From Flavobacteriaceae bacterium (lineage in GTDB: Bacteria > Bacteroidota > Bacteroidia > Flavobacteriales > Flavobacteriaceae), in contig JAQWSN010000005.1 in the NCBI GenBank assembly GCA_029243165.1, forward strand, positions 62,001 through 126,000: a DNA stretch of 64,000 nucleotides. Direction: 5' to 3'. The notes beneath the pieces were generated by a model. It was given only the letters and a program-made list of their open reading frames with translations, made no database searches and was not told the DNA's origin. Shown one piece after another: positions 11,429-16,331 of this stretch; positions within the stretch are counted from its first letter, which is position 1; the number at the start of each line of letters is the position of its first letter. A program made the translations under genes and the position numbers.

Positions 11429-12286
11429 ATGAGCTGGTTTAAGCGAAGTGAGAAAGGTATTCAGACTAAAACTGAAGAAAAAAAAGACATCCCCAAGGGT
11501 CTTTGGTATCGAACTCCAACAGGCAAGGTTATTGAATCTCAAGAATTGGCGGAGAACAACTATGTCAGTCCTGAAGATGATTACCACGTTCATATTGGCA
11601 GTAAGGAATATTTTGAGATTCTCTTTGACAACAACCAGTTTAAAGAACTTGACAGTAAATTAAAATCAAAAGACTTTTTAAAGTTTGAAGATTCAAAAAA
11701 ATACATAGATCGTCTTAAGAGTGCCCATACAAAAACAGGTTTGTATGATGCAATTCGTATTGCCGTTGGGCCCTCCAAAGGAACTGATTTGGTTGTGGCA
11801 TGTATGGACTTTAAATTTATTGGAGGATCAATGGGATCTGTTGTTGGTGAAAAAATAGCACGTGCTACAGACTATGCGATCAAACACAAACTTCCGTTGG
11901 TCATCATATCGAAATCAGGGGGGGCACGAATGATGGAATCGGCCACTTCATTGATGCAAATGGCAAAAACATCAGCAAAACTGGCGCAATTGGCCGAAGC
12001 AAAACTTCCCTACATTTCACTTTGTACCGACCCCACTACAGGGGGAACCACGGCATCTTACGCCATGTTGGGTGATATCAATATTGCAGAACCTAAAGCA
12101 CTTATTGCCTTTGCAGGACCTCGAGTAGTAAAGGATACCACAGGGAAAGACCTTCCAGAGGGTTTTCAAAAAAGTGAGTTTCTTCTAGAAAAAGGTTTTC
12201 TTGATTTCATTTCACATCGTAATGATTTGAAAAATAAAATTAACTTGTACATTGACTTGATTTTAAATCAACCCCTTAGAAAGTAA
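11429..12286 (+). CDS. accD: acetyl-CoA carboxylase carboxyltransferase subunit beta
   Basis: 285 residues, start [12 protein letters not shown] typical of AccD. The carboxyltransferase core has [21 protein letters not shown] and [16 protein letters not shown], forming the oxyanion holes for acetyl-CoA and biotin carboxyl transfer. With AccA it makes malonyl-CoA for fatty acid synthesis. The N-terminal zinc ribbon is degenerate: where E. coli AccD has four Cys, this protein reads WYRTPTGK and YVSPEDDYH with no Cys (Thr, Ser and Asp instead). I recall the same in other flavobacteria, so this is probably lineage-specific rather than decay. It is the last core gene before the accessory island. 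Confidence 0.95.
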
Positions 12287-12389
12287 GCCATTGTACTTGT
12301 AAGTTGAATCTAGCGAGTTTAAAATCCCGATCGAATCCTTTTTTTTATTAATTTAGTGAAATACAGTACCCAAATCTGTTCTCTAAATC

Positions 12390-12752
12390 ATGAAAAACCT
12401 ACGGCTAATACCCGATTTTCATAGACAACACGCAATTGTCAAAGCTGAATTTGCTTTTGACAAAGAACTGATTGCGTTGGTGAAATCTCAAAAAGGGAAG
12501 GTTAAATCTACTGGTAGTTACAAGAGGGTAAACCCGAATACATCAAGGCACAGTTTTGCTACCCATTTACCAGAACAAGGAGTAAGTCTAAGATACAGAC
12601 AAACCCTGCTTGGGCATAATCGTTTAAAAACAACAGAGATTTATCCCCATATAAGTAAAAAATCTCTTGCAAATATTAAAAACCCGTTAGATCAACTTGT
12701 AGAGATGCAATGTGCTGATAATAAGGTTATTGAGAACAGAAAAACAAAATAA
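12390..12752 (+). pseudogene. internally deleted tyrosine recombinase with IntI-like C-terminus
   Basis: 120 codons against roughly 300 or more for an intact enzyme. The first ~37 codons resemble the extreme N-terminus of Bacteroidota integrases (FAFDKELIALVKSQKGKVK). They jump directly, near codon 40, to the C-terminal catalytic box (RHSFATHL, GVSLRYRQTLLGH, TTEIYPHIS). Box II residues Arg53 and His76 and the nucleophile Tyr85 remain, but the usual PHTLRHS reads PNTSRHS, losing the catalytic His, and most of the core-binding and catalytic domains are absent. The tail KSLANIKNPLDQLV resembles the end of integron integrases (IntI1 ends with a SPLD motif, from memory). It cannot be active. Its position at the head of the island on the same strand as the cargo suggests the remains of the recombinase that assembled it. 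Confidence 0.85.
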
Positions 12753-12766
12753 TATATAAAAGAAAT

Positions 12767-12803
12767 AAACGCTATTTGCGTTTAGCTACTAGTTGTGTGT
12801 AAT
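12767..12803 (+). repeat. right half of an attC-like site, upstream of the ATPase gene
   Basis: The block TAGC (12783-12786), five spacer bases and GTTGTG (12792-12797), followed by TGTAAT, matches the right arm of the complete attC-like site at 14859-14881 (TAGCC, six spacer bases, GTTGTG, CATAAT). A small hairpin (AAACGC 12767-12772 against GCGTTT 12778-12783) sits just before it. A matching left arm is not evident, so the site is partial or decayed. The ATPase ORF begins 20 bp after it, as expected for a gene cassette. Confidence 0.5.
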
Positions 12804-12822
12804 GTAACGAAACCAACAAACA

Positions 12823-14736
12823 TTGAAGAAAGAAACCATAATACAAGGCTCATTATTTGAGGAAGACTATCTAATCAGAACTTTAGGAAGTCTTGGAAAT
12901 TCACCAGAAGTTGCACTTACAGAATTGGTTGCGAATGCTTGGGATGCTGGTGCAACAATTGTTGATATTTTCATTCCCGAAGAAAAAGGGCAGAATATTA
13001 TCATTAAGGATAATGGTGTTGGTTTATCGAAAGACGAATTTTATTCAAGATGGATGAAATTGGGCTACAACAGACTAAAACATCAAGGAAAAAAAGTCCT
13101 ATTCCCAAAAGGAGTTGAGCAACAAAGATATGCTTATGGAAGAAATGGAGTTGGCAGACACGGAATGCTTTGTTTCAATAATGAGTATAAAGTGATAACC
13201 AACAATAGTGGAAAAAAATCTGAATTTACAATTACCACTAAAAGCGAAAAAGAACCCTTTATTATTAAAGAACAAAACTTTGAAACTTCTGAAACAGCAG
13301 GAACAGAACTTATAGTTAATGTGGTTAAGAATTTACCTAAACCCGAACATATTATAGAAGTAATTTCTGCAAGGTTTCTACACGACCCAAACTTTAAAGT
13401 TTCAATCAACAGAAAAACAATTCAGTTAGAAGAACATAAGGGATTGATATTTTCAGAAACTGTAAACATTGGAGATATAGAACTCAAAATACATCTGATA
13501 GATTCCAAAAAAGCACGAAAATCAACTTTATATCAAGGAATTGCTTTTTGGCAAAGCGGTAGGTTAGTTGGCGAACCTTCTTGGATTGTAGGTTTCAATA
13601 TGGTTTTAGATGGAAGAACTAAGCAAGCAAAAAGATATTCTGTTGTTGTACAAACCAATGATTTAGCAGAATTCATAAAAGAAGATTGGACAGGATTTAA
13701 GAACACAAAAGAACTAAATCCAATATTTGATAAAGTTGACGAAACCGTTCATAAAATGTTCTCGGAAATTGCAAAAGAGAATATTGAAGAAACAACAAAA
13801 CAAATAAAAAATGAATACAGAAAGGAGTACAATGAATTAAGTCCTCTTGGAAAATATGAATTTAATGAAGCCATAGAAAGTATTGCTTTAAATAATCCTA
13901 CAGCAAGACAAGATTCTGTGAATCTTGCAGTTGAAACGGTTATAAATTTAGAGAAAACAAGAAGTGGAAGCGAACTACTTCAAAAACTTTCATTATTCTC
14001 TGAAGAAGATGTTGAGGATTTAAATAAGCTTCTTGACAAATGGACAGTTAAAGATGCATTAACAGTTTTAGATGAAATAGATAAAAGAATTTCAGTAATC
14101 GAAGCAATAAGAAAATTATCTAACGATAAATCGGTTGATGAACTTCACGTTCTTCATCCTTTAATTGCAAATGCAAGATGGATTTTTGGACCTGAATTTG
14201 ATTCGCCTGAATATGCTTCGAACAATCAACTTCAAACAACGGTCGAAAAAGTATTCAATAAAAAAATAGATAAATCTGCTTTCAACAATCATAAAAAAAG
14301 ACCAGACATTGTTGTTGCTGGCGATTCTACGTTTTCAATAACAGGAACTGTAGATTTTGACAATTCTAATGAAATTACGAATATTAATAAAGTGCTGATT
14401 ATTGAACTTAAAAGAGGCGGATTTAAGTTAGGTAAAACAGAAAGGAATCAAGCAGTCGGTTATGTTGAGGACTTTATGAATTGCGGAACATTAATCGGTT
14501 CGCCTTATATTAATGCTTTTGTAGTCGGAGAAACTTTTAGTGAAAAAATTCAGCCAATATCTAAAGTTTCTAATGGTAGTGATGTAGAAATGGGAAAAGT
14601 TCAAATTTGTCTTTTTTCACAAATTGTTGACTCATCCGAAAGGAGACTTTTCAACTTGAGAAAGAGGTTAAATAAACGTTATGACAATGCTTCTGGGATG
14701 GAGTTATTTGAAAGACAGAAAAAAATAGTAATCTAA
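12823..14736 (+). CDS. GHKL (Hsp90-like) ATPase fused to a PD-(D/E)XK-like nuclease domain; candidate defence protein
   Basis: 637 residues from a TTG start (a stop lies in frame at 12805-12807 and there is no nearby ATG). Residues 1-~200 form a GHKL ATPase: N-box ELVANAWDA (34-42), G1 box DNGVGLS (63-69) and G2 box GRNGVGRHGML (106-116). The middle (about 200-470) is a transducer-like region plus helical, charged segments. The C-terminus carries RPDIVV (Asp495), then IIELKRG with Glu528 and Lys530, and NQAVGY (Gln about 545), the layout of a PD-(D/E)XK nuclease and close to the DUF4263/Shedu pattern ExK...Q...Y. I know GHKL ATPases fused to nucleases from MORC-like and restriction-type defence proteins; the specific family is not recognised. 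It lies alone between two attC-like sequences, without a methylase. Confidence 0.8.
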   Translation: MKKETIIQGSLFEEDYLIRTLGSLGNSPEVALTELVANAWDAGATIVDIFIPEEKGQNIIIKDNGVGLSKDEFYSRWMKLGYNRLKHQGKKVLFPKGVEQQRYAYGRNGVGRHGMLCFNNEYKVITNNSGKKSEFTITTKSEKEPFIIKEQNFETSETAGTELIVNVVKNLPKPEHIIEVISARFLHDPNFKVSINRKTIQLEEHKGLIFSETVNIGDIELKIHLIDSKKARKSTLYQGIAFWQSGRLVGEPSWIVGFNMVLDGRTKQAKRYSVVVQTNDLAEFIKEDWTGFKNTKELNPIFDKVDETVHKMFSEIAKENIEETTKQIKNEYRKEYNELSPLGKYEFNEAIESIALNNPTARQDSVNLAVETVINLEKTRSGSELLQKLSLFSEEDVEDLNKLLDKWTVKDALTVLDEIDKRISVIEAIRKLSNDKSVDELHVLHPLIANARWIFGPEFDSPEYASNNQLQTTVEKVFNKKIDKSAFNNHKKRPDIVVAGDSTFSITGTVDFDNSNEITNINKVLIIELKRGGFKLGKTERNQAVGYVEDFMNCGTLIGSPYINAFVVGETFSEKIQPISKVSNGSDVEMGKVQICLFSQIVDSSERRLFNLRKRLNKRYDNASGMELFERQKKIVI

Positions 14737-14745
14737 AAAACACTA

Positions 14746-14883
14746 CACACAACAATGGCTATAAGTAATTGCTTGTTCTCGCCTACTTCTGAAAACCCTC
14801 GCGGATTTTCAGCTTAGTGTGTACTTACAAAGTTAAGTGTTAATCCACGAAACTACACATAGCCTAGACCGTTGTGCATAATA
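14746..14883 (+). repeat. attC-like imperfect palindrome (~135 bp) between the two island genes
   Basis: Left arm CACAAC (14748-14753), spacer AAT, GGCTAT (14757-14762). Right arm ATAGCC (14859-14864), spacer TAGACC, GTTGTG (14871-14876). Both 6-bp blocks are exact reverse complements and the two spacers differ in length, as in the R''-L''/L'-R' layout of integron attC sites. GTTGTGC differs from the GTTRRRY core at one position. The inner part contains another hairpin (CTGAAAA 14789-14795 against TTTTCAG 14806-14812). It begins 10 bp after the ATPase stop and ends 14 bp before the next start, the expected place for a cassette-junction site. Confidence 0.65.
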
Positions 14884-14896
14884 TGAACGAAAATAT

Positions 14897-15499
14897 ATGG
14901 AGCAAATAATACGAATTGGATTGCCGATATACTTTGTGCTTTTCTTCGGAATTGCATTTGTATTAAAAAGTCTATTTGTTGCTAAAAGAATTGGCAAAAA
15001 TCCTTTAGTTCTTCCAAAAGACGATAGTGCATATGGTTTAATCGGTTTATATTTCAAATTAACAATGTTTGGATTATTGTGCTATACAATATTCTATTCT
15101 TTCCTTCCTGACAGTAACAGCTATTTATTGCCAATCAAAATACTTGAAAATCAAAATTTAAAATATGTTGGAATAGGAATTATGATAGTTGGTTTGATTT
15201 GGACAATAATTGCTCAAAACCATATGAAGGAATCGTGGAGAATTGGGATTGATACCGAAACTAAAACTAAACTCATAACTACCGGATTGTTTGGAATTTC
15301 AAGAAATCCCATTTTCTTAGGGATGATAGTAAGTTTGGTAGGATTGTTTTTCCTGACACCAAATACTTGGACTTTATTATTTATGATTTTAGGGTATGTT
15401 TTAATTCAGATTCAAATCAGACTTGAAGAAGATTTTTTAATTGAACAACACGGGAATGAATATTTGGAATATAAAGAAAAAGTAAGACGATTAGTATAA
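14897..15499 (+). CDS. membrane isoprenylcysteine carboxyl methyltransferase (ICMT)-like protein
   Basis: 200 residues with about five hydrophobic segments. The C-terminal signature of the ICMT/PEMT-type membrane methyltransferases is clear: LITTGLFGISRNPIFLGM, then RLEEDFLIEQHGNEYLEYKEKVRR. These families bind SAM within the membrane and methylate small molecules or lipids; bacterial members have mostly unknown substrates. It starts 14 bp after the attC-like palindrome. It is codirectional with the ATPase gene and may be an independent cassette. No attC-like site is visible at its 3' end, where an IS relic begins. Confidence 0.8.
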   Translation: MEQIIRIGLPIYFVLFFGIAFVLKSLFVAKRIGKNPLVLPKDDSAYGLIGLYFKLTMFGLLCYTIFYSFLPDSNSYLLPIKILENQNLKYVGIGIMIVGLIWTIIAQNHMKESWRIGIDTETKTKLITTGLFGISRNPIFLGMIVSLVGLFFLTPNTWTLLFMILGYVLIQIQIRLEEDFLIEQHGNEYLEYKEKVRRLV

Positions 15500-15540
15500 G
15501 ATACTATGCAAAAAAAAATTATGAAGCCATACTCCCTATG

Positions 15541-15965
15541 GGTCGCACCACAAGGTTTTTTATGATACGTACACTTGATAAAGGAAAGCAAGCTCAAAAC
15601 CTAACTCAAGAATTAATCCAAATGCTACTGCCCTAGAAAAAACAGGTACATTACATAACCTCTGATAACGGAACTGAGTTTGCTATCCACAAGAAAATAA
15701 ACCAAAAATTCAAACTCAATTTTTCTTTACTAACCCCTATTGTTATTTGGAGAGGGTGCGTAGTGAATACGCCAAAAAACTCGTTAGACAGTACCTGCCT
15801 AAGAAAACAGATTTTAACCGGATAAGTAACCAAACGATTAACATGATTGCCAGTAAATAAACAACAGACCAGGGAAGCTACTAGCTTACAAAACGCCGTA
15901 TGAAATATTTTTTTTCAATTTTTAATCCTACATGTTGCACTTATTTGTTGGATCTAGCTTTATTT
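15541..15965 (+). pseudogene. IS30-family transposase relic
   Basis: Conceptual translation of several frames gives IS30 transposase C-terminal fragments: RFFMIRTLDKGKQAQ, then a TAG at 15634-15636, then HYITSDNGTEFA (the DNG/T catalytic-core motif) in the same frame. After a frame change come RQYLPKKTDFNRISNQTINM and, after another, KTPYEIF. At least two stops and two frameshifts rule out function. No inverted repeats or target duplications were found, and the 5' half of the transposase is missing. The segment fills the gap between the ICMT-like gene and the rpsO promoter. Confidence 0.85.
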
Positions 15966-15983
15966 TAATTCAACTTGTAAACA

Positions 15984-16013
15984 TTGTTTTGTCCTTGTTT
16001 AGTTGTATATTTG
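15984..16013 (+). promoter_or_regulatory. TTG-N19-TAnnTTTG promoter for rpsO
   Basis: TTG at 15984-15986 and TATATTTG at 16006-16013 are exactly 19 bp apart, an ideal Bacteroidota housekeeping promoter. The rpsO ATG is 48 bp further on, leaving a leader long enough for the translational control known for S15 in other bacteria. Confidence 0.75.
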
Positions 16014-16061
16014 CAGCTCGATTAAAAAAATTACATAAAAATTATTAAAATTAATATTGGC

Positions 16062-16331
16062 ATGTACAATTCAAAAGAAGCAAAAGAAACTATTTTTAAG
16101 AAACACGGCAAGTCTGAAAAGGACACAGGTTCTACAGAAGGACAAATCGCACTTTTCACTCACCGTATCGAACACCTCTCAAACCATTTAAAAAGCAATC
16201 GTAAAGATTTCAATACAGAGCGCTCTTTAGTGCGTTTGGTGGGTAAAAGAAGAAGTTTACTTGACTACTTAAAGTCCAAAGACATTACGCGTTATCGTGC
16301 AATCGTCAAAGAATTGGGCTTACGTAAATAA
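16062..16331 (+). CDS. rpsO: 30S ribosomal protein S15
   Basis: 89 residues, standard S15 length. The signature HGKSEKDTGSTEGQIAL and the C-terminal RLVGKRRSLLDYLKSKD are unmistakable. S15 binds 16S rRNA early in 30S assembly. The rpsO-pnp order is conserved in many bacteria. It lies immediately right of the accessory island, behind its own strong promoter, so the insertion left its expression intact. Confidence 0.98.
   Translation: MYNSKEAKETIFKKHGKSEKDTGSTEGQIALFTHRIEHLSNHLKSNRKDFNTERSLVRLVGKRRSLLDYLKSKDITRYRAIVKELGLRK

Follow-up and report, generated by a model that had tools for sequence, protein, structure and literature searches.

A probable relic of an integron-like cassette platform with a non-IntI recombinase in a Flavobacteriaceae bacterium

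The recombination core of integrons follows the consensus GTTRRRY. The two ends of an integron cassette are complementary over 9-11 nt according to a passage of PMC2727003, and an excerpt of PMC3607928 describes Treponema-type integrons in which the cassettes and the recombinase, called IntI, are codirectional. IntI is distinguished from other integrases by an extra domain (passage of PMC9024848). The I2 helix is held to convert a double-strand recombinase to the use of folded single strands, with intermediates lacking (excerpt of PMC7790495), and a section of PMC8138268 describes the insert as "not fully conserved" in an integron-like subgroup, yet essential for integron function. Integrons are listed for Bacteroidota in parts of PMC8618304, PMC9668308 and PMC2426708; for the Bacteroidetes proper, the pertinent passage of PMC9024848 counts one complete integron, in Salinibacter ruber M1, preceded only by cassette-less integrases. 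Among the matches listed from the open PMC literature (bioRxiv and subscription papers being outside its scope), neither cassette arrays in Flavobacteriaceae nor array-linked integrases without the IntI insert were named. Here, we describe a 64,000-nt stretch of a Flavobacteriaceae genome (contig JAQWSN010000005.1, positions 62,001 to 126,000; hereafter, the window), in which an insertion between accD and rpsO very probably represents, as judged from sequence, the relic of an integron-like cassette platform that is widespread in Bacteroidota and uses a non-IntI integrase. Cassette units, complementarity of their boundaries, bottom-strand bias, covariation, duplications ending at cores and recombinase-attI adjacency were all computed directly.

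The relic starts with the remnant of a tyrosine recombinase gene (12390-12752, + strand; 120 aa; PF00589, E 2.8e-11) with an in-frame deletion. It is followed by a putative attI remnant (12753-12794, +), the core GTT of which (12792-12794) is preceded by ACTA and lies 39 bp past the recombinase stop, with the same position and core as attI behind intact recombinases (..AACTAGTTGT in genome G014). Cassette 1 would extend from the TT of attI to the G of the attC core (12793-14871, +), a cut point placed by analogy with integrons. It contains a gene for a HATPase_c_3 protein (12823-14736, +), an R''-like arm of the form N6-AAC (14745-14753, +; N6 is ACACAC, 14745-14750) and an attC-like site (14751-14873), which is assigned to the - strand, the bottom strand being the better folder. 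Cassette 2 opens with an R'-like core GTT and the N6 GTGCAT (14871-14879, +) and carries a gene identified by domain match as a PEMT/ICMT-like methyltransferase (14897-15499, +). A first-pass annotation made from the sequence alone had proposed such an integron-like relic, with a decayed recombinase and two cassettes all pointing the same way, a complete palindrome, and a recombinase tail, IKNPLD, resembling the IntI C-terminus; each of these points holds, the tail of IntI being SPLD. The "half attC-like site" that it placed behind the recombinase is real as well, but is better read as the attI remnant.

Among Bacteroidota arrays, cassettes obey a common boundary rule: the N6 that follows the opening GTT of a cassette recurs, as its complement, in the left arm of the site belonging to the same cassette. 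In the window, the N6 of cassette 1 (GTGTGT, 12795-12800) is the exact complement of its ACACAC arm in all 6 of 6 positions; this cassette-boundary complementarity also constitutes the repeat pair I10 (12792-12805 / 14740-14753; 93% of 14). For cassette 2, the opening GTT-GTGCAT predicts the arm ACTATGCACAAC, and the stump ACTATGCA (15503-15510, +) agrees with it until the sequence breaks off. This stump is all that remains of the left arm of the lost attC of cassette 2, and the AAC of that site would end 15 bp past the stop of gene 2, exactly the family median.

The rule was tested on arrays of other genomes, in which sites were first located with a DNA profile built from ten copies. Among 39 consecutive site pairs less than 6 kb apart, the N6 matched at five or six of six positions in 21, compared with a mean of 4.8 and a maximum of 12 in 20000 shuffles. 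When N6 was paired within the same site, only 8 of 55 matched, indicating that it travels with the cassette rather than with the site. The 18 remaining gaps included 16 with the expected N6-AAC arm, followed by sequence that is site-like by eye. A search with the rule alone, demanding AAC, CGTT and the arm, then picked out 134 doubly linked sites, spread over 23 of the 102 sequences scanned; the invariance of AAC and CGTT in these sites is no independent evidence, because the search required both. Five places had been fetched twice (L067 is the L135 contig, and L035 and L083 overlap), and a recount without them left 129 distinct places with 121 distinct cores. The distance between cores was 116-123 in 128 of the 129, where 85-165 had been allowed and the candidate closest to 119 was chosen. 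Of the 129 distinct cassettes, which have a median length of 673 bp, just four lack an open reading frame of 40 aa, and in 118 of the other 125 the longest frame runs along the array (against it in seven). The median cassette gene starts 26 bp past GTT and stops 15 bp ahead of AAC, with repeats included.

The sites themselves form a family with a conserved fold. We kept 133 of the 134 sites by length, and 47 dissimilar ones together with the site of the window gave a 48-row covariance model. For these 48 sites RNAalifold predicted 16 pairs, 14 of them with changes on both sides, and spacers of unequal length towards the core. Two conserved G-T mispairs, present in 38 and 42 of the 48 rows, stand in place of clear bulges. 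Calculated with DNA parameters, 116 of 120 distinct sites fold more stably as bottom strand in the circle form, and 108 do so in the array form (with repeats, 128/133 and 120/133). The sites are related to each other, which makes p-values from the count with repeats too small. In 115 of 120, the circle form is superior to the array form. Site matches all fall on one strand per array (141/141 in six array loci). The site of the window scores 75.5 bits (E 1.2e-14) with this model, partly by construction, because it is one of the 48 rows. Taken as lone DNA, its bottom strand has a folding energy of -18.8 kcal/mol (z -2.07, reached by 3 of 200 shuffles) and its top strand one of -15.5 kcal/mol (z -1.39, reached by 17 of 200). 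The single-strand fold that the first-pass annotation had suggested as a check is only mildly unusual for the lone site, and the case for attC rests on the site family. A 17-mer from the left end of the site, searched with up to one mismatch, occurs in 130 of 299 genomes of the family, compared with 10 of 299 for a reversed control; within its own genome, the three other matches span 14-19 bp, leaving one real copy.

A palindrome of this kind could also be a generic intergenic repeat, such as a miniature inverted-repeat transposable element or a terminator family, that adjoins a recombinase by coincidence, a reading which the first-pass annotation had itself raised. Copies do occur in many genomes, sometimes singly, and in the genome of the window the recombinase block is itself repeated. 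Set against this are the cassette-specific complementarity, the nearly fixed length, the single strand per array, the spacing to genes and the duplications that end at cores (see below). We consider the generic-repeat reading barely credible and reject it on the boundary rule observed in the other arrays.

A large array is found on plasmid pPP2 of Persicobacter psychrovividus, which has about 73 sites in 58 kb, all on one strand (two overlapping stretches gave 51 and 24 matches at E 0.001, of which two are counted twice). The plasmid encodes an intact 384-aa recombinase that spans the start of the record and is missing from its gene table, where genes in that position are not entered. Among 29 duplicated blocks of at least 300 bp and at least 95% identity, 28 end 2-7 bp from a rule-predicted core when the better copy of each pair is taken, against a 4.9% chance of lying within 12 bp, and 19 end at a core in both copies, involving 31 different cores in all. 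These ends would be the footprints, in one plasmid, of cassettes moving as units with the crossover at the core. A start within 12 bp of a core is seen as well in only 14 of the 29 blocks, and the blocks are not independent, because they overlap. The 15 blocks without such a start, and sites that are up to nearly 90% alike across records, would suit arrays that had expanded through homologous recombination among their repeated sites, without any site-specific reaction. That the ends fall at cores in 28 blocks, and in both copies of 19, speaks against such growth, as does the association of N6 with the cassette rather than the site; we regard this growth as highly improbable. Separately, several pPP2 sites (L035, L083) match only as variants of about 180 nt, scoring 28-40 bits, which may represent a second size class.

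These arrays share with sedentary chromosomal integrons an AAC/GTT-bounded palindromic site, the bottom-strand bias, an attI beside the recombinase, large size, cassettes mostly in one direction and complementary cassette ends, here over 9 nt. They differ from them in the nearly fixed length of the site, apparently in having two conserved G-T mispairs in place of the unpaired extrahelical bases of integrons, in the letters after GTT, which do not follow RRRY, and in the recombinase, which is without the I2 helix insert and often has an extra N-terminal domain. The codirectional layout of the window is shared with Treponema-type integrons, whereas a shorter recombinase form of other lineages points away from the array.

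The remnant in the window led to full-length relatives that adjoin cassette arrays. A scan of named genomes matched at least 592 stretches; the evaluation covers the best 80, of which 78 are titled Bacteroidota. Among the 57 loci with at least 700 bp downstream of the recombinase, 38 have a GTT within 420 bp past its stop that the rule connects with a site further downstream. Overall, such an attI link was found in 39 of the best 80 loci, with the GTT 24-155 bp past the stop in 37 of the 39; counted over all loci, 42 of 472 GTTs were linked, compared with 5 of 472 when hexamers were reversed. The common context of this attI is ATATAAC-N-AGTTR.

The intact recombinases resemble IntI in their [SN]P[LF]D tail, and an ordinary IntI integron as the source of the relic would also account for the cassettes, the position of attI and the GTT core. 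Indeed, canonical IntI scores above the cut-off in 85 of 296 sampled genomes of the phylum. However, all eight recombinases tested against the integron integrase profile TIGR02249 match it in two separated pieces with 189-213 bits, below the cut-off of 265, and in an alignment with IntI1 the columns of the IntI-specific insert (the I2 helix, patch III region) are empty in 12 of 12; in the window, the corresponding section of the gene falls within the deletion. In a tree of 78 rows, 23 IntI sequences form one clade (100/99), and 46 longer array-linked or related enzymes as well as five shorter ones fall outside it; the longer ones are not one clade. Four Xer rows, chosen as the outgroup, are also separate at 100/100. 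On this tree, IntI may or may not be the sister of the insert-less recombinase family. Moreover, canonical IntI was found in just one of 73 genomes of the window's class, and none of 22 canonical IntI loci, whose flanks reach at most about 1.5 kb, had a match to the site model. On profile, alignment and tree we reject an ordinary IntI integron, which is a very unlikely source. The IntI-like enzyme proposed by the first-pass annotation was therefore not upheld by the intact relatives; the same annotation had reasoned that a recombinase grouping with transposon integrases and not with IntI would undo the integron reading, and the relatives do group apart from IntI, but the evidence for the cassette structure is independent of this. 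The recombinase linked to this family lacks a part thought essential for integron recombination. We classify the system as integron-like rather than as an IntI integron because the defining insert is absent.

Xer-type enzymes also resemble these recombinases. XerA and archaeal Xer proteins act at dif-like sites and are not known to carry cassettes. NF040815 (XerA), named "site-specific tyrosine recombinase/integron integrase" by NCBI, is the best NCBIfam profile for seven of the eight recombinases, above its cut-off of 220 in three, and TIGR02249 is the best for the eighth. The XerC and XerD equivalogs scored 149-193 bits compared with cut-offs of 330-335, placing the recombinases outside both. 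For the one enzyme tried, PDB matches were XerA, an archaeal Xer and, in split form, IntI4; the XerA/archaeal Xer group (5hxy, 4a8e) gave both its best sequence match in PDB and the best Foldseek match of its model, with the extra N-terminal domain outside the matched part. This domain, present in one recombinase form, is somewhat similar to HARP/XPB: the first member reaches 15.4 bits with Pfam HARP (gathering threshold 25), the best of 37 members E 3.7e-4, and comparison of models gives a weak to middling fold similarity among the listed matches. The shorter form (272-330 aa, five examples) has neither the insert nor the N-terminal domain and lies on the strand opposite to the sites; many rule-linked sites were found at its loci in G334, G342 and G001, and hardly any in G465 and G349. 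G334 combines the two types, with a canonical IntI on one contig and, on a different one, an array accompanied by a divergent recombinase that lacks the insert (L223, L237). On contig C1 of G220, several similar recombinases of about 298 aa are found near site matches (around 1241734, 2683880, 2688120 and 2933380), perhaps representing a mobile recombinase of its own.

With the covariance model, for which counts saturate at 11 and E-values are rough, at least one site at E 1e-4 or better was found in 125 of 296 phylum genomes. In the class of the window, 42 of 73 sampled genomes have sites, which makes them common rather than rare; the first-pass annotation had expected a small sedentary integron in a lineage where these are rarely described. 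A strong recombinase match, defined as E 1e-64 or better by a line drawn after the list was seen, was likewise found in 42 of 73. Both occur together in 32 genomes, one only in 10 and 10, and neither in 21 (Fisher p 2.8e-4, ignoring relatedness). With IntI in 85 of the phylum genomes and a single one of this class, sites in other classes may belong to either enzyme.

Several of these results weigh against a platform driven by the linked recombinase. In addition to the missing starts and the overlap of the pPP2 blocks, 10 of the 42 site-bearing class genomes are without a strong recombinase match, and 10 of the 42 with such a match are without a site. Of the 57 recombinases with enough downstream sequence, 19 show no attI link, several of them with almost 10 kb, and two of these (L106, L135) nevertheless hold linked sites. 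The genome counts of the site model refer to a sample within the phylum. Finally, the fragment in the window is too short for placement in the tree, and searches of its genome found no full-length recombinase relative; with a single full site, the window copy of the platform therefore looks dead. The genomes lacking a strong match, the unlinked recombinases and the Xer-type recombinases also found in these genomes would be compatible with real arrays whose cassettes are moved by another enzyme, either IntI in trans or XerC/XerD, while the linked recombinase has some other task. The attI directly behind the recombinase, the co-occurrence of the two and the near absence of IntI from the class argue against such a division of labor, which we hold to be unlikely.

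The integron-like platform appears to work in the same way as integrons. In living copies, an attI core with the frequent form ATATAAC-N-AGTTR lies behind a tyrosine recombinase gene, and cassettes, most of them a single gene with its attC of about 119 bp, are joined end to end at the GTT core. The site would act as a folded single strand, the bottom one preferred as in integrons. We infer that the linked recombinase carries out the cassette reaction; it would act on folded single strands, and its N-terminal HARP/XPB-like domain may replace the function of the missing IntI helix. A broader proposal, for and against which we see the chances as even, is that Bacteroidota harbor a second integron lineage recombining folded attC without I2, composed either of heirs of a pre-IntI intermediate or of an independent line in which a fork-binding domain similar to HARP/XPB reads the hairpin. 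The origin of single-strand use becomes testable with a family whose sites are integron-like and whose enzyme has no I2. If such a second lineage exists, a class nearly devoid of canonical IntI is full of integrons overlooked by searches that key on the IntI insert; if the platform is active, the class genomes with sites, and a plasmid as rich in them as pPP2, would hold a large pool of mobile, mostly unstudied genes.

The recombinase remnant in the window consists of about the first 40 residues of a recombinase fused in frame to about the last 70: against a profile of intact relatives (384 positions), it matches positions 5-40 weakly (3.6 bits) and 308-379 with 98.7 bits, and its last 84 residues match the ends of both TIGR02249 (E 9.8e-17) and XerD (2.6e-17). 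It is part of a 457-bp block (12318-12774, +), which covers the deleted recombinase and runs into the attI region, and of which a 94% identical second copy is present on contig C27 with the identical internal deletion and no recognized cassettes beside it. In both copies the H of PHTLRHS is changed to N. Between the two 363-bp remnant reading frames there are 27 nucleotide differences, of which 6, 8 and 13 fall on codon positions 1, 2 and 3, and 13 residue differences, a pattern that does not look like strong constraint. The platform in the window has lost the middle of its recombinase, of which a copy bearing this deletion exists elsewhere in the genome, and the end of cassette 2.

The insertion as a whole spans 12285-16002, without assigned strand. 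The one same-genus genome sampled (G137) aligns up to 12284 and resumes at 16003, with only 58 bp in between; accD ends at 12286 and rpsO starts at 16062. The gene of cassette 1 is possibly a defense gene, as suggested by the HATPase domain and a weak similarity to restriction enzymes of the BbrUII/HgiDII type. Apart from the window's own genome, 1 of 299 family genomes has a relative of its protein (G018, 83% identity), and no clear attC was seen beside that relative, which neither supports nor refutes movement of cassette 1. The far end of cassette 2 is replaced by transposase-like debris (15520-15930, +), which looks IS30-like. Just outside the insertion lies the S15 ribosomal-protein leader of rpsO (16006-16064, +; RF03161, 59.8 bits). 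On the Flagellimonas marinaquae plasmid NZ_CP092416 (L036, 7216-13063), a copy of the site separates a gene of the dihydrofolate-reductase family from one for a Tn3-family transposase; erm(F) and a "tyrosine recombinase/integron integrase" are annotated nearby. Finally, an imperfect direct repeat ending in GTTGNATCTAGC (12289-12316 / 15937-15962; about 18 of 25 by eye) flanks the relic in the window and possibly represents the two ends of one transposon family.

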